Below, piece after piece: positions 2 through 23,917 of a stretch of DNA of 23,917 bases; positions within the stretch are counted from its first letter, which is position 1, and every line of letters begins with the position of its first letter. The position numbers and the translations under genes were made by a program. The notes beneath the pieces are model-generated. The model saw only the letters and a list, made by a program, of their open reading frames with translations, was not told where the DNA came from and did not search any database. This DNA comes from a virus. The stretch lies in the IMG/VR virus record IMGVR_UViG_3300042937_000979, positions 1 to 23,917 of that record; one strand, 5' to 3'.

Positions 2-3000
2 CAAACATTAGATGTTACTGATTTGAATATTACTGTAGCTAAAGGTTCTGCAAATGGTGCTGCAGCTGATGGTGCTGGTTTAACAGTAGCAGGTGCTGGT
101 GCAACAATCACTTACACAAACGCAACAGATACATGGAATTTAAACAAAGGTTTAGTTGGTACGTCAGCGGCATTAAGCGGTGCGTTAAGTGCAGGTGCAA
201 CTACTTTAGGTGCAACTACAACAACTACTCTTGGAGCAACAAACGTTACAGCAAGTGGTACTTTAGGTGTTACCGGTACAGCTACAATGGCGGCAGTTAA
301 TGCAACAAACGTTACAGCAAGTGGTACTTTAGGTGTTACTGGAGCAACTACATTAGCTGGTTTAACAGCAGGTACAACTTCGGTTGGTGCGTTAACAGCA
401 GGTGAAACTACAACAACTACTCTTGGAGCAACAAACGTTACAGCAAGTGGTACTTTAGGTGTTACTGGAGCTACTACAATGGCTGCTTTATCGGCAACTG
501 ATGTTACAGCAAGTGGTACATTAAGTGCAGGTGCAACTACTTTAGCAAGTGCTACAGTTACTGGAAATGAAACAGTTGGCGGTACGTTAGGTGTCACAGG
601 TGCAACTACACTAGCCGGGTTAACAGCAGGTGCTTCTACTTTAGCTTCAGCAAGTGTTACTAATAACGCTACAGTTGGTGGTACTTTAGATGTTACTGGT
701 GCAACTACTTTAGCAGGTTTAACAGCAGGTGCAACTACAACAGCAGCTCTTGGTGCTACAAATGTTACTGCAAGCGGTACATTAGAAGTTACGGGTGCAA
801 CTACTTTAGCTTCGACTTTAAGTGCAGGTGCTTCTACATTAGCAAGTGCTAGTGTTACTGGAAATGAAACAGTTGGCGGTACTTTAGCAGTTACTGGTGC
901 AACTACTTTAGCGGCAGTTAGTGCAACTGATGTTACAGCAAGTGGTACTTTAGCAGTTACTGGTAATTCTACATTACATGCGGTTAGTGCAACTAATGTT
1001 GCTGCAAGCGGCACATTAAGTGCTGGTGCAACTACTTTAGCAAGTGCTAGTGTCACTGGCGCAGCAACTGTTGGTACAACCTTAGCAGTTACTGGTGCAA
1101 CTACTTTAGCGGCAGTTAGTGCAACTGATGTTACAGCAAGTGGTACATTAAGTGCTGGTGCAACTACTTTAGAATCTGCAACAGTTACAAATAACGCTAC
1201 TGTTGGTGGTACGTTAGGTGTTACTGGTGATGCAACTATTGGTGGCTCTGTTCTTATTACTGGTGACTTAACTGTTGAAGGTACTGTAACATCAATTAAC
1301 TCAGCAACATTAGACATTACTGATAAAAACATTACAGTGGCTAAAGGCGCTGCAGATGCAGCTTCAGCTAACGGTGCTGGTTTAACAGTTGACGGTGCAA
1401 ATGCAACAATTACATACGCAAGTACAACAGATACATTTAACTTTAATAAAGGTGTTGTTGCTACAACAGCGGCATTAAGTGGTACTTTAGCAGTTACTGG
1501 TGCAACTACATTGGCTTCAACATTAAGTGCAGGTGCTTCTACTTTAGCAAGTGCTAGTGTTACAAATAACGCTACTGTTGGTGGTACTTTAGGTGTTACT
1601 GGTGCAACTACATTGGCTGGGTTAACAGCAGGTGCAACTACAACAACTACTCTTGGAGCAACAAACGTTACAGCAAGTGGTACGTTAGGTGTTACTGGTG
1701 CAACTACAATGGCTGCTTTATCGGCAACTGATGTTACAGCAAGTGGTACTTTAGCAGTTACAGGTAATGAAACTGTTGGTGGTACTTTAGATGTTACTGG
1801 TGCAACTACAACAGCGGCATTATCAGCAACTAACGTTACAGCAAGTGGTACTTTAGATGTTACTGGTGCAACTACAATGGCTGGTTTAACAGCAGGTGCA
1901 ACTACAACAGCGGCATTATCAGCAACTAACGTTACAGCAAGTGGTACTTTAGATGTTACTGGGGCAACTACATTAGCGGCAGTTAGTGCAACTGATGTTA
2001 CAGCAAGTGGTACTTTAGCAGTTACTGGTAATGAAACAGTTGGTGGTACTTTAGCAGTTACTGGTACAGCTACGATGGCAGCAGTTAATGCAACTAACGT
2101 TACAGCAAGCGGTACTTTAGGTGTTACTGGTGCAGCTACAATGGCAGCAATTAGTGCAACTAACGTTGCAGCAAGTGGTACATTAAGTGCAGGTGCTTCT
2201 ACTTTAGCTTCAGCAAGTGTTACTAATAACGCTACTGTTGGTGGTACATTGGCAGTTACAGGTAATGTTACAGCAAGTGGTACTTTAGCAGTTACAGGTA
2301 ATGAAACTGTTGGTGGTACTTTAGCAGTTACTGGTGCTTCTACTTTAGCTTCGGCAAGTATTACACACAATACAACAGTTGGTGGTACGTTAGGTGTTAC
2401 TGGTGCTACTACAATGGCTGCTTTAACAGCAACTAACGTATCTGCTTTAGGAACATTAAGCGCAGCTGGTAATGCAACTTTAAGTGCTGATTTAGCAGTT
2501 ACAGGTAATGAAACAGTTGGTGGTACATTAGGTGTTACTGGTGCAACTACTTTAGCAGGTTTAACAGCAGGTGCTTCTACTTTAGCTAGTGCTTCTATTG
2601 TTAACAATGCAACAGTTGGCGGTACTTTAGCAGTTACTGGTGCTTCTACATTACATGCGGTTAGTGCAACTAATGTTACAGCAAGTGGTACTTTAGGTGT
2701 TACTGGTGCAACTACATTAGCGGCAGTTAGTGCAACTAACGTTACAGCAAGCGGTACCTTAGCAGTTACTGGTGCAGTTACTGGTTCAACAGCTACATTT
2801 AGTGGCAACGTTGTTGCAGCAAACTTTACTACATCTGGTGATGCTTCATTGCAAAACTTCTTTGCTACAGGCGAGTCAACTATTGGTGGTACTTTAGCAG
2901 TTACTGGTGGAGTTACATTAGCAAGTACATTAACAGTATCGGGTGCAACTAGTTTAACTAGCAGTCTTGATGTTGCAAATGGTGTTACTGTTAATAGTAA

Positions 3001-4087
3001 CCAAACAGCAAATGACTTTGTTGTTATGGGACAAGATGCAACTAGCTTAATATTAGCTGATTCTTCAATGAACAGTTTAGTAATTGGTGGAAGTGCAACT
3101 GCTGGAGTTGCTGGTGTTATTGCTAAATTTAATAGCACTAATACAATCATGTTACCGGTTGGTGATATTGCACAACGTCCAAGTAACAGTGGATCAACTG
3201 ACTTAGCTGGTATGGCACGTTTCAGTACTACATCAAATAACTTAGAGTTCTACAACGGTACATCATGGCAACAAACAGGTAGTTCATTCACTATTATTAC
3301 AAGTAATTCGTTTATTGGTGATGGTACAACTACAGTATTTGAAATGTCAACTGAAAGTACAACAGCAGGAACAATGGTAGCAATCAACGGTGTCATGCAA
3401 TTACCGACTCTTGCTTACAGTGTAACTGGAGTAACATTAACATTTACTGAAGCTCCATCAGTTGGTGATTTGATTGATGCACGTGTATTAATTACAACAG
3501 CATCAGTATCAACATTGTCAAATGGTAACGGTTATGTACAAGTTAAAACAGCAGATGCGTTTGCTAATGTATATGCTGGTACAGGTGCGCAAACTTTACG
3601 TATTAGCACAAGTGCCGAAACTGGTACAACAACGTTTGAAAATGATGTTGTTATTAAAGGTAGCTTAACTGTATTAGGTGACACTGCCGGTAATATTAAC
3701 ATTGGTGATTCATCAAGTGACCACGTAACAGTTAATGCAAGTTCAGTAACATACACAAACGGTACTAAAATTGCTTACGATCAAACAGCAGTTACAGTTG
3801 GTACTAGTGCTACAGTTATTGATAGTTTTGCTAAAGCAACTTATCGCTCTGCAAAATACATTGTAACTATATCAAACAGCGGTACAGGTGAGTATGAAAC
3901 TACTGAAGTGTTGGTATTACACAACGGTACAACAGCGCAACGTACACAGTTTGGTACTATGTATACTGGATCAGCAAGTTTAGGTTCTGTATCTGTAGCA
4001 GTTAATGGTGCAAATGTTGAATTAAGTTACACAGGTGTTGCAATAGGTAATGCGGTTAAATTACAATCATCATATATCAAGGTGTAA
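2..4087 (+). CDS. Repetitive tail-fibre-like protein, 5' truncated by window
   Basis: Probable tail fibre or other elongated virion protein. The reading frame is open to the left edge; the first possible start in the window is a TTG at 23, but in-frame codons before it (QTLDVTD) match the internal module TLDITDKN, so the true start lies upstream. At least 1361 residues are visible. From about residue 50 to 985 it consists of short degenerate beta-strand-like repeats of the type VTASGTLGVTGATTLA, rich in Thr/Ala/Gly/Ser and almost free of charge and Cys. This suggests an extended beta-solenoid or trimeric fibre shaft. A longer module (ITVAKG...GAGLTV..ATITY...NFNKG) occurs at the start and again 434 codons later. 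The last ~310 residues are non-repetitive (VGDIAQRP, ARFSTTSNNLEFYNGTSW) and probably form the tip or a trimerisation domain. The 3' neighbour starts 3 nt later, so they are probably co-transcribed. The fibre role is inferred from composition and context. Confidence 0.8.
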   Translation, partial: QTLDVTDLNITVAKGSANGAAADGAGLTVAGAGATITYTNATDTWNLNKGLVGTSAALSGALSAGATTLGATTTTTLGATNVTASGTLGVTGTATMAAVNATNVTASGTLGVTGATTLAGLTAGTTSVGALTAGETTTTTLGATNVTASGTLGVTGATTMAALSATDVTASGTLSAGATTLASATVTGNETVGGTLGVTGATTLAGLTAGASTLASASVTNNATVGGTLDVTGATTLAGLTAGATTTAALGATNVTASGTLEVTGATTLASTLSAGASTLASASVTGNETVGGTLAVTGATTLAAVSATDVTASGTLAVTGNSTLHAVSATNVAASGTLSAGATTLASASVTGAATVGTTLAVTGATTLAAVSATDVTASGTLSAGATTLESATVTNNATVGGTLGVTGDATIGGSVLITGDLTVEGTVTSINSATLDITDKNITVAKGAADAASANGAGLTVDGANATITYASTTDTFNFNKGVVATTAALSGTLAVTGATTLASTLSAGASTLASASVTNNATVGGTLGVTGATTLAGLTAGATTTTTLGATNVTASGTLGVTGATTMAALSATDVTASGTLAVTGNETVGGTLDVTGATTTAALSATNVTASGTLDVTGATTMAGLTAGATTTAALSATNVTASGTLDVTGATTLAAVSATDVTASGTLAVTGNETVGGTLAVTGTATMAAVNATNVTASGTLGVTGAATMAAISATNVAASGTLSAGASTLASASVTNNATVGGTLAVTGNVTASGTLAVTGNETVGGTLAVTGASTLASASITHNTTVGGTLGVTGATTMAALTATNVSALGTLSAAGNATLSADLAVTGNETVGGTLGVTGATTLAGLTAGASTLASASIVNNATVGGTLAVTGASTLHAVSATNVTASGTLGVTGATTLAAVSATNVTASGTLAVTGAVTGSTATFSGNVVAANFTTSGDASLQNFFATGESTIGGTLAVTGGVTLASTLTVSGATSLTSSLDVANGVTVNSNQTANDFVVMGQDATSLILADSSMNSLVIGGSATAGVAGVIAKFNSTNTIMLPVGDIAQRPSNSGSTDLAGMARFSTTSNNLEFYNGTSWQQTGSSFTIITSNSFIGDGTTTVFEMSTESTTAGTMVAINGVMQLPTLAYSVTGVTLTFTEAPSVGDLIDARVLITTASVSTLSNGNGYVQVKTADAFANVYAGTGAQTLRISTSAETGTTTFENDVVIKGSLTVLGDTAGNINIGDSSSDHVTVNASSVTYTNGTKIAYDQTAVTVGTSATVIDSFAKATYRSAKYIVTISNSGTGEYETTEVLVLHNGTTAQRTQFGTMYTGSASLGSVSVAVNGANVELSYTGVAIGNAVKLQSSYIKV
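5..151 (+). repeat. Fibre module copy 1 (ITVAKG module)
   Basis: This encodes TLDVTDLNITVAKG through NLNKG. It is the first copy of a 49-codon module that recurs exactly 1302 nt (434 codons) downstream with strong protein similarity. The module separates blocks of short beta repeats. Confidence 0.8.
1307..1453 (+). repeat. Fibre module copy 2 (ITVAKG module)
   Basis: Second copy of the 49-codon module (TLDITDKNITVAKG through NFNKG). It is preceded by LITGDLTVEGTVTSINS, which probably also preceded copy 1 outside the window. Confidence 0.8.
1799..1972 (+). repeat. 96-nt tandem duplication inside the fibre gene
   Basis: The 78 nt at 1799-1876 recur at 1895-1972 with one difference (T1867 versus G1963), an offset of 96 nt or 32 codons. 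It is the clearest very recent tandem duplication in the array and preserves the reading frame. Confidence 0.85.
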
Positions 4088-18753: not shown

Positions 18754-19248
18754 ATGACACAAAAACTACAAGAATTATTTAACCTTGCTCCTACCGAAGA
18801 ACCCACAGTAGAAGACGCAAACACAACAATCGAAGAAAACAGAGCTATGCTCGTGGAAATGGATCTTACCATTGATAAGATAGATGCCGCACTGCCACAC
18901 GTTAACGACCTTGATACTACAGACAATGAGTTAGATGAACTTGCTAAATTAGCAACTGAAAAGTTTAATGACTTAATGGACTTGGGTATGAACGTTGAAG
19001 CACGTTTTAGTGGAACAATACTGCAAACAGCTGGCACATTATTAGGTCACGCAATTACAGCAAAGCAAGCTAAGATTGATAGAAAAATACGTACAATTGA
19101 TTTACAACTTAAGAAAATGAAGTTAGATCAATCTGCGACTAAAACAGATGGTGACAAAATACTTGGTGCTATAGATGGCAATGGCGGCGTAGTACTTGAT
19201 AGAAATGCACTATTAGCACAGATACTTGGTAAAAGCAAGCCAGATTAA
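18754..19248 (+). CDS. 16: Small terminase subunit gp16-like
   Basis: Probable small terminase, the ring that regulates the gp17 motor and recognises DNA for packaging. It is 164 aa, as in T4. It has a helical N-terminal half (ENRAMLVEMDLTIDKIDAAL), a central helix ARFSGTILQTAGTLLGHAIT (about 92-111; compare T4 [20 protein letters not shown]), a Lys-rich helix KIDRKIRTIDLQLKKMKLD and a short C-terminal tail with VVLDRNALLAQIL. Coiled-coil composition and position between gp4 and gp17 support the call. Primary similarity is low. Unlike T4, it is separated from gp17 by 3.5 kb. Confidence 0.7.
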   Translation: MTQKLQELFNLAPTEEPTVEDANTTIEENRAMLVEMDLTIDKIDAALPHVNDLDTTDNELDELAKLATEKFNDLMDLGMNVEARFSGTILQTAGTLLGHAITAKQAKIDRKIRTIDLQLKKMKLDQSATKTDGDKILGAIDGNGGVVLDRNALLAQILGKSKPD

Positions 19249-19290: not shown

Positions 19291-19896
19291 ATGAAGAATT
19301 TTTTGCAACATTTAACTGAAAGCCAAAAAACATACGAGTTTGTAATTAAGATTGCTAACATCGATCCAGCGGAATCATTGGATAGATTAAAATCAGCACT
19401 TGATGCTTACGGCTTAGAAAGTTTAAGTAAACCAAAACGTTTACCAATTAAAGCCAATGATATTGATTTTCCGGCTTTGGTTAACTGCCAGTTATACTTA
19501 ATGGATGCAGTGCTTAAATATCCAGTAAACGATGCGCAATTACGTGCTATTGTATCAGAACGTGGAGCAATTCCGCCTAGCAATATTGTAGTTGTTCCTA
19601 AAAATCATCCAGAAGAAGTATGGCGTTGGAACGCAACAGGTGAAAGCGAAATACGTGAATTCAAAAAAGGTGAAGCAGTACTTGATAAACCATACGAAGC
19701 AGATTGCCCATCGGCAGCTGAAGCTAGTAAAGCGTATAGTCAAGGTAGTTTTCTTAAAGAATTAAACAAAGTTAAGTTTGAAATTGCTGGTAAAGAATCA
19801 GCAGATGGTAAAACAACAAATGATTTACCACAAGGAACAAAAAGCCCAGTGGGCTCAGTAGCAACTAAATTACCAAGCCCATCTAAAGGAAAATAA
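19291..19896 (+). CDS. Unknown protein with N-terminal capsid-targeting-like peptide
   Basis: A 201-aa protein of unassigned family. It begins MKNFLQHLTE-S: a 10-residue amphipathic peptide ending L-T-E, which resembles the T4 internal-protein leader MKTYQEFIAE cut by the gp21 prohead protease at (L/I)-x-E. The core (residues ~14-100) looks folded, with YEFVIKIANIDPAESLDRLK, then LKYPVNDAQLRAIVSERGAI, then PPSNIVVVPKNHPEEVW, an alpha/beta pattern. The last ~60 residues are charged and Ser/Pro/Lys-rich. It has its own late promoter and good Shine-Dalgarno, so it is a late protein, probably in the virion. Confidence 0.85.
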   Translation: MKNFLQHLTESQKTYEFVIKIANIDPAESLDRLKSALDAYGLESLSKPKRLPIKANDIDFPALVNCQLYLMDAVLKYPVNDAQLRAIVSERGAIPPSNIVVVPKNHPEEVWRWNATGESEIREFKKGEAVLDKPYEADCPSAAEASKAYSQGSFLKELNKVKFEIAGKESADGKTTNDLPQGTKSPVGSVATKLPSPSKGK

Positions 19897-19900
19897 TAAA

Positions 19901-21511
19901 ATGAGCAACAATAACATCTATAACATCTTAGGCAAGTTAAAAGGAATCACCGATACTGCCGCCTTGACACCAGACACACAACCTACTACAGTATACGAAA
20001 GCGTGGAAGCACGTGGTAGTATCACAGAAGCAGTTAAGGCTTTAGAAGCAAAGTATAAAACTTTTAAAGAAAGCAAAGCCGATGACATTGCCGACAAGAA
20101 AGCAGAAAAAGAAGCCGGCGACTGGTGGGGCGATAAGAAAGCTGACAGTAAAAAATCACGTGAAGTTAAAGGTGACAAATACGGCGGAAGCAAACAAAAA
20201 TCAGATGACGAAGACGACTTCAAAAGCAAAAAAACTGCTATCTTAGATAAAGATGAAGAAGAAGTTTTAGATGAATCATTAAATGAATATAGCCAAGACG
20301 AATACGATGGTGCTATGTCGGACTTTAAAAAGAAAGGCGGCCAAGTGAAACAATTACCAGCAGGTAATGCTAAAAACCCAATCTCAACAGCAAGTCGTCA
20401 TATTGCTGGTAAAGGTGAAGCGGGCAAAGGTAAGACAGCTGGACGTGGAGCAAATGTAACAGCTTCTAAACCTGTAGTTGATATATATGAAAAGGCACTT
20501 CCGGGTCGAGTAGAAGAAGGTTTGGCTTTTGGCGATACAGTTAAAAACTCAGCCGCTAAATTAAGCAAAGCTCCAAAAGCTAAACTAGTTAAAGAAAGCG
20601 CATCAGTACGCAATCACCCAATCTATACTAATCCAGATGCATGGAATCACTATAAAAAAGAATTAGACGAAGAAGAATTGGGTAAAGCAACACAAGAGTT
20701 AGATGAAATTTCTAAACTTGCTGGATTGCCAAAACCAGCCGTTAATACTGTACCACCAATTGCCCCTGCTGCAGATAATTTTCCACCTGCACCACCAGAG
20801 CTACCACCGCTTGTAATTGAAGCAGACAATGCAGTTTCAATTAACGGCCAAGATGTAAATGTTGATAGTATCGAAGTTGATGGGGTTAACCTGCAAGATA
20901 TGCCAGATTTCTCTGATGCTTATATAACATACGCAGAATTTACAGATGGTACACCACTATCAGAGCGTGAGTTAGAACAATTAGATAACGAACACGGCGA
21001 TTTAGTAAATATAGCGGCACACGATAGTTTACACGGCATGGCTGATAGATTTGAGATAGATGAAACAGAAATGGAAGAAGGCAATGAATTTAGTGGTGCA
21101 TTAGCAGCCGCTAAAGCATCTGGTATTAAAGACTTTGAAGTTGCTGGTAAAAAATATACAGTTAAAGAAGATATTAACGTAAACGTTACAGCAAGTGGCG
21201 AAGAAGATGCACTTAATTTAATCCGTAAATTATCTGGGATGCCAATGATTGCAGTTGCACAAAGTGAAGAACCATGCGATGGCGCAATGGAAGTTGAAGT
21301 TGATGAAGAACGTGACCCAGAATATGTAAATAGTCCACGTGAACAAACTGCTAGTATCGGTGCTGCTATTCCAAGCGGTAATGACTTACACGGTGCTAAA
21401 CGTGCTTATAAAATTACACAACCAGGCGACAACCCAATGGCAGTTGCTGAATCTAAAAAAGATACAAGCTGGAACAAATACACAGGTATGTTAAAAGGAC
21501 TGTTGAAATGA
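19901..21511 (+). CDS. Large acidic, mostly disordered protein between terminase genes
   Basis: A 536-aa protein with no named family recognised. The order is: a highly charged Lys/Glu/Asp region (~43-135, KESKADDIADKKAEKEAG, DDEDDFKSKK), a basic Gly/Lys segment (~160-190, GKGEAGKGKTAGRGANVT), a proline-rich stretch (~280-305, APAADNFPPAPPELPPLV), then an acidic C-terminal half with MEEGNEFSGALAAAKASGIK and DFEVAGKKYTVKED. Several (L/I)-x-E sites occur (ITE 41-43; LDE and LNE near 125). The composition fits a scaffold-like, head-core or internal protein, but that is inference. It starts 4 nt after the preceding stop, and its stop overlaps the next start (ATGA). Confidence 0.85.
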   Translation: MSNNNIYNILGKLKGITDTAALTPDTQPTTVYESVEARGSITEAVKALEAKYKTFKESKADDIADKKAEKEAGDWWGDKKADSKKSREVKGDKYGGSKQKSDDEDDFKSKKTAILDKDEEEVLDESLNEYSQDEYDGAMSDFKKKGGQVKQLPAGNAKNPISTASRHIAGKGEAGKGKTAGRGANVTASKPVVDIYEKALPGRVEEGLAFGDTVKNSAAKLSKAPKAKLVKESASVRNHPIYTNPDAWNHYKKELDEEELGKATQELDEISKLAGLPKPAVNTVPPIAPAADNFPPAPPELPPLVIEADNAVSINGQDVNVDSIEVDGVNLQDMPDFSDAYITYAEFTDGTPLSERELEQLDNEHGDLVNIAAHDSLHGMADRFEIDETEMEEGNEFSGALAAAKASGIKDFEVAGKKYTVKEDINVNVTASGEEDALNLIRKLSGMPMIAVAQSEEPCDGAMEVEVDEERDPEYVNSPREQTASIGAAIPSGNDLHGAKRAYKITQPGDNPMAVAESKKDTSWNKYTGMLKGLLK

Positions 21512-21873
21512 GTTCAGACTTATTAAAAAAATATGCAATGATTGTTGAAAGTAGTAATTACTTCAACAATCCTACTGTACCAGCTGATGAACAACTTCCT
21601 GCACCGCCAGAAGAAGTTAATCTACAACTTAACGAAGAAGATGACAACTATCATCTCAATGAGTTATTAGATCAACTCGAAGAAGCATTGGAACAAGCTG
21701 GTAACATCTGTAGAGAACTTGAGCATTCTGAACAGTTAGGTAGAGTTGTTAGAGCATACACTCGCCCATGGTTACAAGCATGGATTAGTGATAGCCATCA
21801 AATGGGTTCAGTATATTCAATGCGTGAAACATTAGTAGACAATGCTAGCGATGAAGAAGACGGCGAATACTAA
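21508..21873 (+). CDS. Small acidic protein of unknown function
   Basis: A 121-aa protein beginning MSSDLLKKYAMIVE-S, again with an I-x-E site within the first 14 residues. It is Glu/Gln/Asp-rich with a leucine-spaced helix (HLNELLDQLEEALEQAGNIC) and an aromatic YTRPWLQAWISDSHQ segment. No domain recognised. The start overlaps the upstream stop (ATGA), so it is translationally coupled. The final Asp/Glu tail ends just before the next gene. Confidence 0.82.
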   Translation: MSSDLLKKYAMIVESSNYFNNPTVPADEQLPAPPEEVNLQLNEEDDNYHLNELLDQLEEALEQAGNICRELEHSEQLGRVVRAYTRPWLQAWISDSHQMGSVYSMRETLVDNASDEEDGEY

Positions 21874-21874
21874 A

Positions 21875-22219
21875 ATGAAAACATTACGTGAATATATCGA
21901 GCAACTGACTGAACGTAGTCAAGTTGACCCAGAAACACAAAATATGCTAACTATTGCTAAAGCAAGATATCCGCAGGCACAAGGTGATGATCTTAGTGCA
22001 TTGGCTACATTAGTACGTAGATCAAACAAACATAGTATGGCCGATATTAAAACACTTGGTGCAGAAAATGATGCAGAAGAAGCAGATATTGACCAATTAG
22101 AAATTGAAAATAACAGCGAAGATATGGCAATTGATGCAAACAGTCACAAACTCGATACACTTGATAATGAATTAACTCAATTGCGTAAACAAATAGCTAC
22201 ACTAACAGGTAGACACTAG
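21875..22219 (+). CDS. Small helical protein with capsid-targeting-like N-terminus
   Basis: 114 aa from the ATG at 21875. The longer frame from 21842 overlaps the upstream gene and lacks a better start. It begins MKTLREYIEQLTE-R, ending in L-T-E, close in style to T4 internal-protein leaders (MKTYQEFIAE). The remainder is a predicted coiled coil: EEADIDQLEIENNSEDMAID and LDTLDNELTQLRKQIATLTG. Function unknown. The stop overlaps the next start (TAGTG). Confidence 0.8.
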   Translation: MKTLREYIEQLTERSQVDPETQNMLTIAKARYPQAQGDDLSALATLVRRSNKHSMADIKTLGAENDAEEADIDQLEIENNSEDMAIDANSHKLDTLDNELTQLRKQIATLTGRH

Positions 22220-22605
22220 TGAAAATTAATGAAATAATCACTGAAGGGCATGCTGGTGCAATACCCGATAATGCTAAAAACTCAAATACAGGTGAGTGGA
22301 AATTCCGTGACAAAGGTGGGTACGATCGTACTTACAATTTAAATCGTGTCATGATGGCAGCTGCAATGTCAGATGGTTCTGGTAAACCAGTTGAAATGGA
22401 CCAATCAAGTTGGGTTGAGAAGTTTAACCTTGCTCGCCCATATACAGAAGCAGAACACGGCATGATGAAATCTGCTATGAAAACCGTAGATAGCGAATAC
22501 GAAGAAACTGAAAAAGATCATAAAAGTAAAGAAGATGATGATGTGCATAAAAACAGTTCAGTTCCGCACAATGCTGGTGCAAAGCGTAACAAGCCAAAGA
22601 ACTAA
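22219..22605 (+). CDS. Small protein with MKINEIITE-G N-terminus, GTG start
   Basis: A 128-aa protein starting at a GTG that overlaps the upstream TAG. It begins MKINEIITE-G, a short leader ending I-T-E followed by Gly, a good match to the T4 prohead-protease rule. The body has RDKGGYDRTYNLNRVMMAAA and a charged, disordered tail (KDHKSKEDDDVHKNSS). No domain recognised. The TAATG junction couples it to the next ORF. Confidence 0.82.
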   Translation: MKINEIITEGHAGAIPDNAKNSNTGEWKFRDKGGYDRTYNLNRVMMAAAMSDGSGKPVEMDQSSWVEKFNLARPYTEAEHGMMKSAMKTVDSEYEETEKDHKSKEDDDVHKNSSVPHNAGAKRNKPKN

Positions 22606-22787
22606 TGATCAAACAATATCGCATTAGAGCACAAGATTACACAGAGGCTTTGATACCTGATGCGATACTTGATGTAAACGACCCAGCATATACAATCACA
22701 AGCGTAACAGATGTAAATCAACCAATGACACTGTCTAATTTTATAACAGCACACAATATTAATACAACTCCATCACAAGATAAGTAA
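22605..22787 (+). CDS. Very small protein of unknown function
   Basis: A 60-aa ORF whose ATG overlaps the previous stop (TAATG) and which ends 4 nt before gp17. Its contiguous coupled position argues that it is real. It is beta-like (YRIRAQDYTEAL, AYTITSVTDVNQPMTL) with no recognised domain. It could also act to couple translation into gp17. Confidence 0.65.
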   Translation: MIKQYRIRAQDYTEALIPDAILDVNDPAYTITSVTDVNQPMTLSNFITAHNINTTPSQDK

Positions 22788-22791
22788 TAGT

Positions 22792-23917
22792 ATGGCTAAA
22801 TCACTTGAAGGCGTACTTGTAAAACGTGCGCACCAAACAGAAACCTTTACCGAAGAACAAATTTTAGAATTTGCTCGTTGTGCTGACCCTATTACTGGGC
22901 CAGAATACTTTATGAGTAATTACTTTTACATACAGCATCCTACTAAAGGTCGTATGTTGTACCAACCATTTGATTATCAAAAACGTTTAATTGAAACATA
23001 TCACAACTATCGTTTTAGCATATCATTAATGCCGCGACAAACAGGCAAATCAACATCTGCCGCCGGCTACTTGCTATGGTACGCTATGTTTGTACCAGAT
23101 AGTACTATCCTAATTGCCGCACACAAATACACAGGTTCACAAGAAATTATGGCTCGTATACGTTATGCATACGAGTTGTGTCCTGACTTTATACGTGCTG
23201 GTGCTACAAGCTACAACAAAGGTAGTATAGACTTTGAAAACGGCAGTAGAATCAACTCATCGACTACAACAGAAAATACCGGCCGGGGTATGTCTATTTC
23301 ATTATTATATTGCGATGAGTTTGCGTTTGTGCGCAGTACCATTGGCCGTGAATTCTGGACTTCTATTAGTCCTACACTAGCAACAGGTGGTAAATGTATT
23401 ATCACATCAACACCTAATTCAGATGAAGACCAATTTGCTACCTTATGGAAAGGAGCCAACAAATGCATCGACGAATTTGGCAATGCCACTGAATTAGGAG
23501 TTAATGGGTTTAAATCATTCCGTAGCTTCTGGCGCGAACATCCGGATAGAGATGATAAATGGGCCGCAGAACAGCGTAGTCAATTAGGTGACGAACGTTT
23601 CCGTCGTGAAATGGATTGTGAATTTATTATCTGGGATGAAACATTAATTAACCCAGGCCACCTAATTGAAATGTCTGGTATTGACCCAATTGAACGACAG
23701 GGCCAGATACGTTGGTACAAAAAGCCAAGCCCAGCAAATACATATATGGTTGCATTAGACCCAAGTTTGGGTACAGGTGGTGACCCAGCTGCAATACAAA
23801 TATTTGAATTGCCTAGCTTTATACAGGTAGGCGAATGGCAACACAATCGCACACCAATACAGCAACAGATTGGTATACTTAGAGAAATCACACGTTACCT
23901 AGCAGAAACAGTGCCAG
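22792..23917 (+). CDS. 17: Large terminase subunit gp17, 3' truncated by window
   Basis: ATP-driven DNA packaging motor with nuclease domain, acting at the portal of the prohead. There are 375 complete codons before the right edge and no stop. ATPase motifs: LMPRQTGKST (Walker A, residues 79-88; T4 SRQLGKTT), LLYCDEF (Walker B with catalytic Glu, 171-177) and TSTPN (motif III, 205-209). The nuclease domain begins at YMVALDPS with D323, matching the first metal-binding Asp of the RNase H-like fold. Walker A lies near residue 81 against ~161 in T4 gp17, so the N-terminus is about 80 residues shorter. It starts 4 nt after the previous ORF, with no strong Shine-Dalgarno, suggesting coupled translation. 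Confidence 0.96.
   Translation, partial: MAKSLEGVLVKRAHQTETFTEEQILEFARCADPITGPEYFMSNYFYIQHPTKGRMLYQPFDYQKRLIETYHNYRFSISLMPRQTGKSTSAAGYLLWYAMFVPDSTILIAAHKYTGSQEIMARIRYAYELCPDFIRAGATSYNKGSIDFENGSRINSSTTTENTGRGMSISLLYCDEFAFVRSTIGREFWTSISPTLATGGKCIITSTPNSDEDQFATLWKGANKCIDEFGNATELGVNGFKSFRSFWREHPDRDDKWAAEQRSQLGDERFRREMDCEFIIWDETLINPGHLIEMSGIDPIERQGQIRWYKKPSPANTYMVALDPSLGTGGDPAAIQIFELPSFIQVGEWQHNRTPIQQQIGILREITRYLAETVP

Follow-up and report, generated by a model that had tools for sequence, protein, structure and literature searches.

The window analysed here is a complete record, 23,917 bases long, of a freshwater virus that infects bacteria (IMG/VR record IMGVR_UViG_3300042937_000979), and the subject is the cluster of small open reading frames (ORFs) at positions 19291–22605, which precedes a terminase gene. 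Three of these, ORF A (19291), ORF D (21875) and ORF E (22219), and less surely ORF C (21508), probably encode capsid-targeted head proteins whose N-terminus is a T4-type capsid-targeting sequence (the tag), likely to be trimmed by a protease of the gp21 family, with the 536-amino acid (aa) ORF B (19901) as a candidate core protein bearing a recurrent motif, named here LAG. Judging from the comparison of sequences, the tag assignment is strong for ORFs A and E, fair for ORF D and weaker for ORF C. The preliminary description of this DNA had listed four small ORFs with N-termini ending in (L/I)-x-E, and their positions and N-termini were found as given there. An (L/I)xE near the N-terminus is uninformative by itself, and the case rests on the conservation of its position and on the specific tag.

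Conservation was studied in relatives. Loci were sampled by IMG/VR scans, 67 for ORF A and at least 80 for the terminase, and 146 were compared; they were picked via these two genes, and in some cases more than one locus comes from overlapping parts of a single contig. Relatives were found with tblastn in 103 of the 146 loci for ORF A, 82 for ORF B, 29 for ORF C, 14 for ORF D and 48 for ORF E, and 67 of the loci with family A homologues had been retrieved using ORF A itself as the query. Counts were made on representatives with less than 60% identity (23 for family A, 17 for E, 3 for C and 1 for D). In family A, [LIV]xE was present within the first 22 residues of 22 of the 23 representatives, compared with a mean of 5.9 after shuffling and 10/23 in a control stretch, and glutamate was at position 10 in 21. 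Positions 2, 4, 7, 8 and 10 showed an entropy of 0.26–0.68 bits, while positions 3, 5, 6 and 9 gave 2.45–2.95 bits. The motif was found in all 17 family E representatives (6.4 in shuffles, 2/17 in the control), with E9 invariant in these and in all 32 aligned sequences, and conservation falls after this residue (mean entropy 1.37 over residues 2–10 and 2.29 over 11–20). Two family E members have the site shifted by an insertion yet retained, and a site shifted in the same manner is kept as L-V-E in family D of three loci (L249–L251). Between ORF C and a relative of 43% identity, all of the first 14 residues agree but just 2 of the 16 that follow, and this break falls exactly at the predicted cut. 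Both GAA and GAG are used for the glutamate at the tag sites; therefore, selection acts on the protein. The position of (L/I)-x-E, proposed as a processing site in the preliminary description, is conserved in families A and E and kept in C and D. The start of ORF D was also fixed by homologues, as the longest ORF in its frame opens at 21842 and all 9 distinct homologues listed (one truncated by the contig end) begin at MK(T/S)LR.

The conserved residues coincide with those of T4 internal protein III (IPIII), where residues 4 and 7 act mainly in targeting and 8 and 10 in processing (a passage of PMC9026906 citing Mullaney and Black 1996), and where aspartate at position 10 abolishes processing while targeting remains (same source, in part). 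Within residues 2–10, family A conserves exactly positions 4, 7, 8 and 10, plus residue 2. Family D fits these roles with L4, Y7 and I8 and a displaced site, family E fits only after a one-residue shift, and family C fits poorly. The family A member of the more distant phage GAP32 has L4, I7, L8 and E10, with L-T-E at positions 8–10. Aspartate occurs at position 10 in 7 of 79 distinct family A proteins, and by analogy with IPIII these forms would be targeted but uncut.

A tag matrix was trained solely on N-termini of freshwater families A and E, with the residue frequencies of the Pseudomonas phage PA5oct as background. In T4, 268 ORFs of at least 45 aa were scored, each from the best start found in its first 30 codons; the top four were gp61.1 (13.4), IPIII (10.2), IPII (10.2) and IPI (6.6), and the fifth score was 4.3. 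The best score among 70 ORFs of lambda was 4.2. In the window, 3 of 25 ORFs scored at least 8: ORFs A and E, both in the training set, and ORF D (15.5), whose family was outside it.

PA5oct, a cultured relative, provided a comparison with virion data. Its virion labels are notes in the GenBank record, obtained by electrospray ionization tandem mass spectrometry (ESI-MS/MS), and they concern whole virions; the set comprised 93 labelled and 144 unlabelled proteins, taken with their annotated starts. The eight highest tag scores among these 237 all belonged to virion-labelled proteins (gp333, gp246, gp104, gp105, gp282, gp149, gp247 and gp279). Among them, gp282 is the homologue of ORF A and gp333 begins with MKINDIITEG; gp281, taken as the counterpart of ORF B by position and motif, is also labelled. 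Without gp282, scores of at least 2 were found in 7/92 labelled and 0/144 unlabelled proteins (Fisher 0.0012, at one of several cut-offs scanned post hoc), and five proteins (four without gp282) scored at least 8, against 0.24 expected from shuffled N-termini.

A gp21-type protease, whose presence elsewhere in the genome the preliminary description left to be sought, was found in the relatives. The gp21 family PF03420 matched 11 of 12 relative records, 10 of them above the cut-off, and gp23 matched 11 of 12 as well. The 114-kb record G001 shows more of the same phage, because the whole window is contained there at 99.7% identity; it holds gp23, a gp22-like scaffold and, at its contig end, only a piece of the protease, below the cut-off. 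PF03420 had no match in the window and control genomes likewise gave none, so this search was uninformative. In G002, a relative ending inside ORF A, the portal gene is followed by a small ORF, an acidic gp67-like ORF, the protease, the gp22-like scaffold and the capsid protein, where the portal, gp67 and gp22 labels were assigned by position. The capsid protein presents L-x-E, one residue and then A-(T/S)-AGAT in the 4 loci, out of 11, in which the pattern located the stretch. As a separate observation by eye, S-P-(V/L/I) occurs close to the C-terminus in several proteins presumed to belong to the head core, among ORF A and ORF E homologues and the gp67-like proteins of G002 and PA5oct.

ORF B was characterized through the LAG motif, [LIV]-x-x-[LIM]-x-x-[LMI]-[AS]-G-[LIVM], a pattern drawn from the same sequences, so that its test is post hoc. 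In 61 distinct loci covering the region from ORF A to the terminase, the largest ORF in between, placed by position and not by homology, ranges from 257 to 1224 aa. These ORFs contain 95 LAG motifs versus 2.5 in shuffles, and 3 of them have none. The same motif ends the gp22-type protein (recognized by its place ahead of the capsid gene) of G001, G002, the 329-kb relative G004, PA5oct, the Sinorhizobium phage Phosso and GAP32, while gp22 of T4, KVP40 and Syn19 showed no LAG motif. A LAG matrix trained on the 61 largest ORFs gave, as the four highest of 435 ORFs in G004, ORF B (27.4, in the training set), the C-terminus of an amidoligase protein (26.8), the C-terminus of a large protein after the terminase (21.0) and the C-terminus of the gp22-type protein (16.6); the fifth scored 13.6. 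The single LAG protein without a label in PA5oct is of the gp22 type, which would fit with its degradation. A literature search that combined the motif with scaffolding protein and prohead gave no papers. The preliminary description had the 536-aa ORF as core or scaffold; the motif shared with the gp22-type C-terminus speaks for such a role, but the PA5oct counterpart is virion-labelled and hence not simply degraded away as a scaffold. In three further loci (L253, L254 and L255), larger proteins include an ORF D-like stretch, and two of them (L254 and L255) are also in part ORF B-like by eye, so modules of the core proteins seem to be mixed.

In the proposed mechanism, the hydrophobic or aromatic residues of the tag would bind the prohead core, so that the tagged proteins would enter while the shell is still open. 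Cleavage by the gp21-family protease behind the glutamate of (L/I)-x-E would next free the mature part in the head and release the tag peptide. ORF B would be a core protein of variable length; its LAG motifs match the C-terminal end of the gp22-type scaffold and may serve to dock ORF B to the partner that the scaffold binds there. We infer core binding, cleavage, presence in the phage's own virion and the docking role of LAG from the comparisons above. More tentatively, and with somewhat less confidence than an even chance, these giant T4-related phages may use two portable head labels: the N-terminal tag, and the LAG motif that ends the gp22-type scaffold and is reused at the C-termini of unlike proteins and inside ORF B, docking cargo to the partner of the scaffold C-terminus.

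Several results weigh against tagged and trimmed head proteins, or narrow the extent of the proposal. Conservation in family A does not drop past the site (mean entropy 1.51 over residues 2–10 and 1.45 over 11–20), and the narrowness of families C and D makes the evidence for them thinner. In the PA5oct homologue of ORF A, and in that of Phosso read from its second methionine, F4 and Y7 are kept and residue 10 is A and S, respectively; cleavage therefore appears, from these sequences, not to be general in family A, since E10 is lacking there. ORF C is missed by the tag matrix, not being among the window ORFs that score at least 3. The predicted mature isoelectric points (pI) are 7.64 for ORF A, 4.05 for C, 4.68 for D and 6.58 for E, C and D being acidic, compared with 9.02, 9.56 and 9.65 for T4 IPI–III. 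In the PA5oct comparison, the unlabelled set spans about 43.4–246 kb and excludes two early-gene regions, and the cut-offs of 2, 4, 6, 8 and 10, scanned post hoc, gave Fisher values of 0.0012, 0.0084, 0.022, 0.022 and 0.058. The full score distributions were alike (Mann–Whitney 0.76), only the top tail being separated, and enzymes such as ribonucleotide reductase are also virion-labelled, so that the label does not prove a head protein. The LAG score was not significantly associated with the labels (4/92 versus 1/144 at cut-offs 11 and 12, p 0.077). The loose [LIV]xE motif, present in the first 20 residues of 67 of the 237 PA5oct proteins, showed no preference for labelled ones (22/93 versus 45/144 unlabelled, p 0.24), and the argument from the four N-termini is weak because the motif is common and lacks this preference. 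Four ORFs with this motif among the six of 19291–22787 is only mildly unusual (binomial about 0.06). A regular-expression scan was uninformative, with 10 matches in G001 against 4 and 9 in controls, and 2 in G002 against 1 and 1. Counts of LxE within the four ORFs were not significantly above shuffles (lowest p 0.082), and LxE is mildly raised in the largest ORFs of the 61 loci (547 versus 419).

Three other explanations were considered. The four proteins might be packaged, trimmed and injected to disarm host defences, like T4 IPI. Injected T4 proteins do use the same class of tag (parts of PMC3012670 and PMC9026906), the tag recurs although the set of genes from ORF B to the terminase differs among loci, and G004 bears an array of differently built tagged proteins including the amidoligase. 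Nevertheless, ORF A and its synteny are conserved as far as PA5oct and GAP32, whereas the internal proteins of T4 are variable (as described in part of PMC9026906), the mature pI values lie far from those of IPI–III and none of the four has a Pfam match above the curated cut-off, so this explanation is considered unlikely. The anti-host function suggested in the preliminary description was accordingly not supported, in view of the wide conservation of ORF A in stable synteny and of these pI values, whereas for its proposal of co-packaged and processed proteins the T4-type targeting and processing tag is supported (by comparative evidence, the T4 and PA5oct tests and the protease of the relatives), with uneven strength among the four. 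ORF A more likely has a standing head role than an anti-host one, because it is conserved and its neighbours in PA5oct and GAP32 are head and tail genes. In GAP32 (locus L224, 122926–124528), the family A member is next but one to a gp4-like head completion gene, the gene between being the counterpart of ORF 18754 by position, and the terminase is 77 kb away.

Alternatively, the N-terminal helix could be a docking peptide for the core or the shell that is never cut, with the glutamate forming part of the binding face. The D10 forms of family A, the A or S of PA5oct and Phosso, the persistence of targeting with D10 in T4 (a portion of PMC9026906) and the even conservation past the family A site agree with it. 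It is nonetheless rather improbable in view of the invariant E9 of family E with conservation falling after it, the retention of the site when displaced by insertions and the fall of family C identity exactly past the glutamate. Chance, given that (L/I)xE is frequent in acidic phage proteins (as the PA5oct counts and the near-shuffle LxE counts illustrate), can be practically dismissed by the conservation above shuffles in families A and E and by the recovery of T4 internal and PA5oct virion-labelled proteins with a matrix not trained on them.

The tag was also found elsewhere in the relatives. Of 435 ORFs in G004, 18 scored at least 8, as did 2 of 3379 internal start codons used for comparison. 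The training families account for two of these ORFs (17407 and 19915), and 13 of the other 16 show by eye a tag ending in [LIV]xE, or 14 counting V-N-E one residue later. Two pairs among the 18 share related mature parts. At the same threshold, G001 gave 7/159 ORFs against 0/1101 internal starts, and G002 0/114 against 1/1128. The 61 loci contain 348 ORFs, of which 126 are tagged (best methionine within the first 60 residues); clustering the mature parts of the tagged ORFs gave 6 groups, of which 4, with 18 ORFs, do not belong to the training families. An array of ten tagged ORFs of differing make-up lies at 198492–218043 of G004 (L201 and L202) and includes a tagged 1065-aa protein with an amidoligase domain (PF12224, E 8.7e-15) and a LAG motif at its C-terminus. 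Anti-host cargo would be more plausible for this array than for the ORF A cluster. Interspersed among its tagged ORFs are a protein with GNAT matches and a weak nucleotidyltransferase match, and a DNA/RNA non-specific endonuclease (PF01223). A 454-aa tagged G004 protein was considered as an ADP-ribosyltransferase, but sequence searches of Pfam, PHROGs and the PDB did not bear this out. Relatives of one tagged G004 protein and of ORF D were not found in the phage collection searched. In G001, a second tagged group is seen at 20217–22867 (L173, minus strand), where two proteins begin with MKINEIL(T/V)E and neighbours carry ILTE or QLVE near their N-termini. In T4 itself, gp61.1 (L234, NC_000866 18966–19130, minus strand), a 54-aa protein annotated as hypothetical, outscored the known internal proteins, and its sequence makes it a possible head-internal protein; it is not discussed in the parts considered of PMC9026906, where the term is a journal issue number, or of PMC5694885.

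The features of the cluster and its neighbours are collected in Table 1. Pfam and PHROGs searches with ORFs A–F gave weak matches only, none above a Pfam cut-off. In the model of ORF A, a short N-terminal helix is followed by a ferredoxin-like domain and then by a disordered tail, with block values of the predicted local distance difference test (pLDDT) of 84–92 over residues 11–110. Its fold matches are generic (ribosomal S6, HPPK, PII), the ferredoxin-like fold being common, and the best rows in a viral structure library were uncharacterised or unnamed phage proteins. The model of ORF E was poor (mean pLDDT 70.6, predicted template modelling score 0.39).

Table 1. Features of the ORF A–terminase region, in window coordinates.
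Feature	Position	Strand	Basis
ORF 18754, 164 aa, conserved protein upstream of the cluster	18754..19248	+	phrog_16202, E 1.3e-17
ORF A, 201 aa: N-terminal tag, ferredoxin-like domain at about 15–103, disordered tail; predicted head-internal	19291..19896	+	homologues, PA5oct gp282, model
Predicted capsid-targeting sequence of ORF A, residues 1–10, predicted cut after E10	19291..19320	+	conserved residues 2, 4, 7, 8, 10
ORF B, 536 aa, acidic, pI 4.75; candidate core or tether protein	19901..21511	+	LAG motifs; PA5oct counterpart gp281
LAG motif 1 of ORF B, LDEISKLAGL, residues 267–276	20699..20728	+	
LAG motif 2 of ORF B, LNLIRKLSGM, residues 438–447	21212..21241	+	
ORF C, 121 aa, acidic	21508..21873	+	
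Predicted tag of ORF C, residues 1–14, predicted cut after E14; least certain of the four	21508..21549	+	identity break
ORF D, 114 aa, acidic	21875..22219	+	homologues share the start at 21875 rather than 21842
Predicted tag of ORF D, residues 1–13, predicted cut after E13	21875..21913	+	L-(T/A)-E in homologues; tag score 15.5
ORF E, 128 aa, GTG start	22219..22605	+	39 distinct homologues, 32 aligned
Predicted tag of ORF E, residues 1–9 (MKINEIITE), predicted cut after E9	22219..22245	+	E9 invariant
60-aa ORF without tag; in many relatives, the ORF at the same place opens with a LAG motif	22605..22787	+	
Terminase large subunit (gp17-like), open at the contig end	22792..23917	+	59% identity to terminases of PA5oct-like Pseudomonas phages

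The gene order of the window was read by synteny with PA5oct as tail sheath (12519), tube proteins (15841 and 16559, the latter also supported by a PHROGs match), gp4-like head closure protein (18304; phrog_218, E 3.4e-41), ORF 18754, the cluster and the terminase. The cluster had been placed between gp16 and gp17; the gp17-like terminase is indeed downstream, but the upstream ORF 18754 could not be taken as gp16, its hhalign comparison with T4 gp16, made with a single T4 sequence on that side, giving a probability of 0.1. Its sole family match is phrog_16202, of unknown function, and its relative adjoins the ORF A homologue in PA5oct. At the other end of the window, a 1354-aa ORF (23–4087, plus strand) has short repeats rich in alanine, threonine and glycine and is perhaps a fibre, with an open frame of 1012 aa on the opposite strand (112–3150, minus).

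Previously, the T4 internal proteins formed a small set of low conservation with a common tag, and here a matrix that recovers T4's own tags picks out, in an uncultivated giant phage, many proteins that are unrelated. Sequence alone may thus predict which of hundreds of unknown proteins travel in the head, where injected anti-defence proteins are expected, and testable claims arise in laboratory phages, such as a head-internal T4 gp61.1. If the proposal of two labels is true, reading both from sequence would list the packaged arsenal, perhaps 13–18 proteins in one genome. Literature searches pairing the tag with PA5oct returned nothing, and with jumbo phage listed work on another phage, SPN3US; background was drawn from parts of PMC10052503, PMC5512222, PMC5259590, PMC5694885, PMC6892783 and PMC7247149.

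Compared with known systems, the proteins of the cluster resemble T4 IPI, IPII and IPIII in having an N-terminal tag, which in T4 is of 10–19 residues ending in (L/I)xE (part of PMC9026906), and ORF D resembles IPI in that its site is displaced downstream of the targeting half. They differ from IPI–III in the mature parts of ORFs A, C, D and E, which are not basic, in the tag form of ORF E, one residue shorter, and in ORF A being a conserved gene that adjoins head and tail genes; profile searches of T4 with families A and E, the two covered, gave no match. The proteins are best filed as tagged head-core proteins and not as members of the IPI–III class, because C and D are acidic where those of T4 are basic. 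Their inferred place in assembly is similar to that of T4 gp22, gp67 and gp68, which are processed by gp21, and ORF B shares with the gp22-type scaffold of its own group the LAG motif that the scaffold has at its C-terminus, whereas T4 gp22 has no LAG and the PA5oct counterpart of ORF B is virion-labelled. The cultured relatives are PA5oct and its kin and Phosso, with GAP32 more distant. PA5oct (Arenbergviridae) differs in that gp282 lacks the glutamate at position 10, no gene lies between gp281 and the terminase and a family E profile search found no member, but it has the ORF A homologue gp282, the ORF B counterpart gp281 and gp333, a protein that begins with MKINDIITEG, all three virion-labelled.

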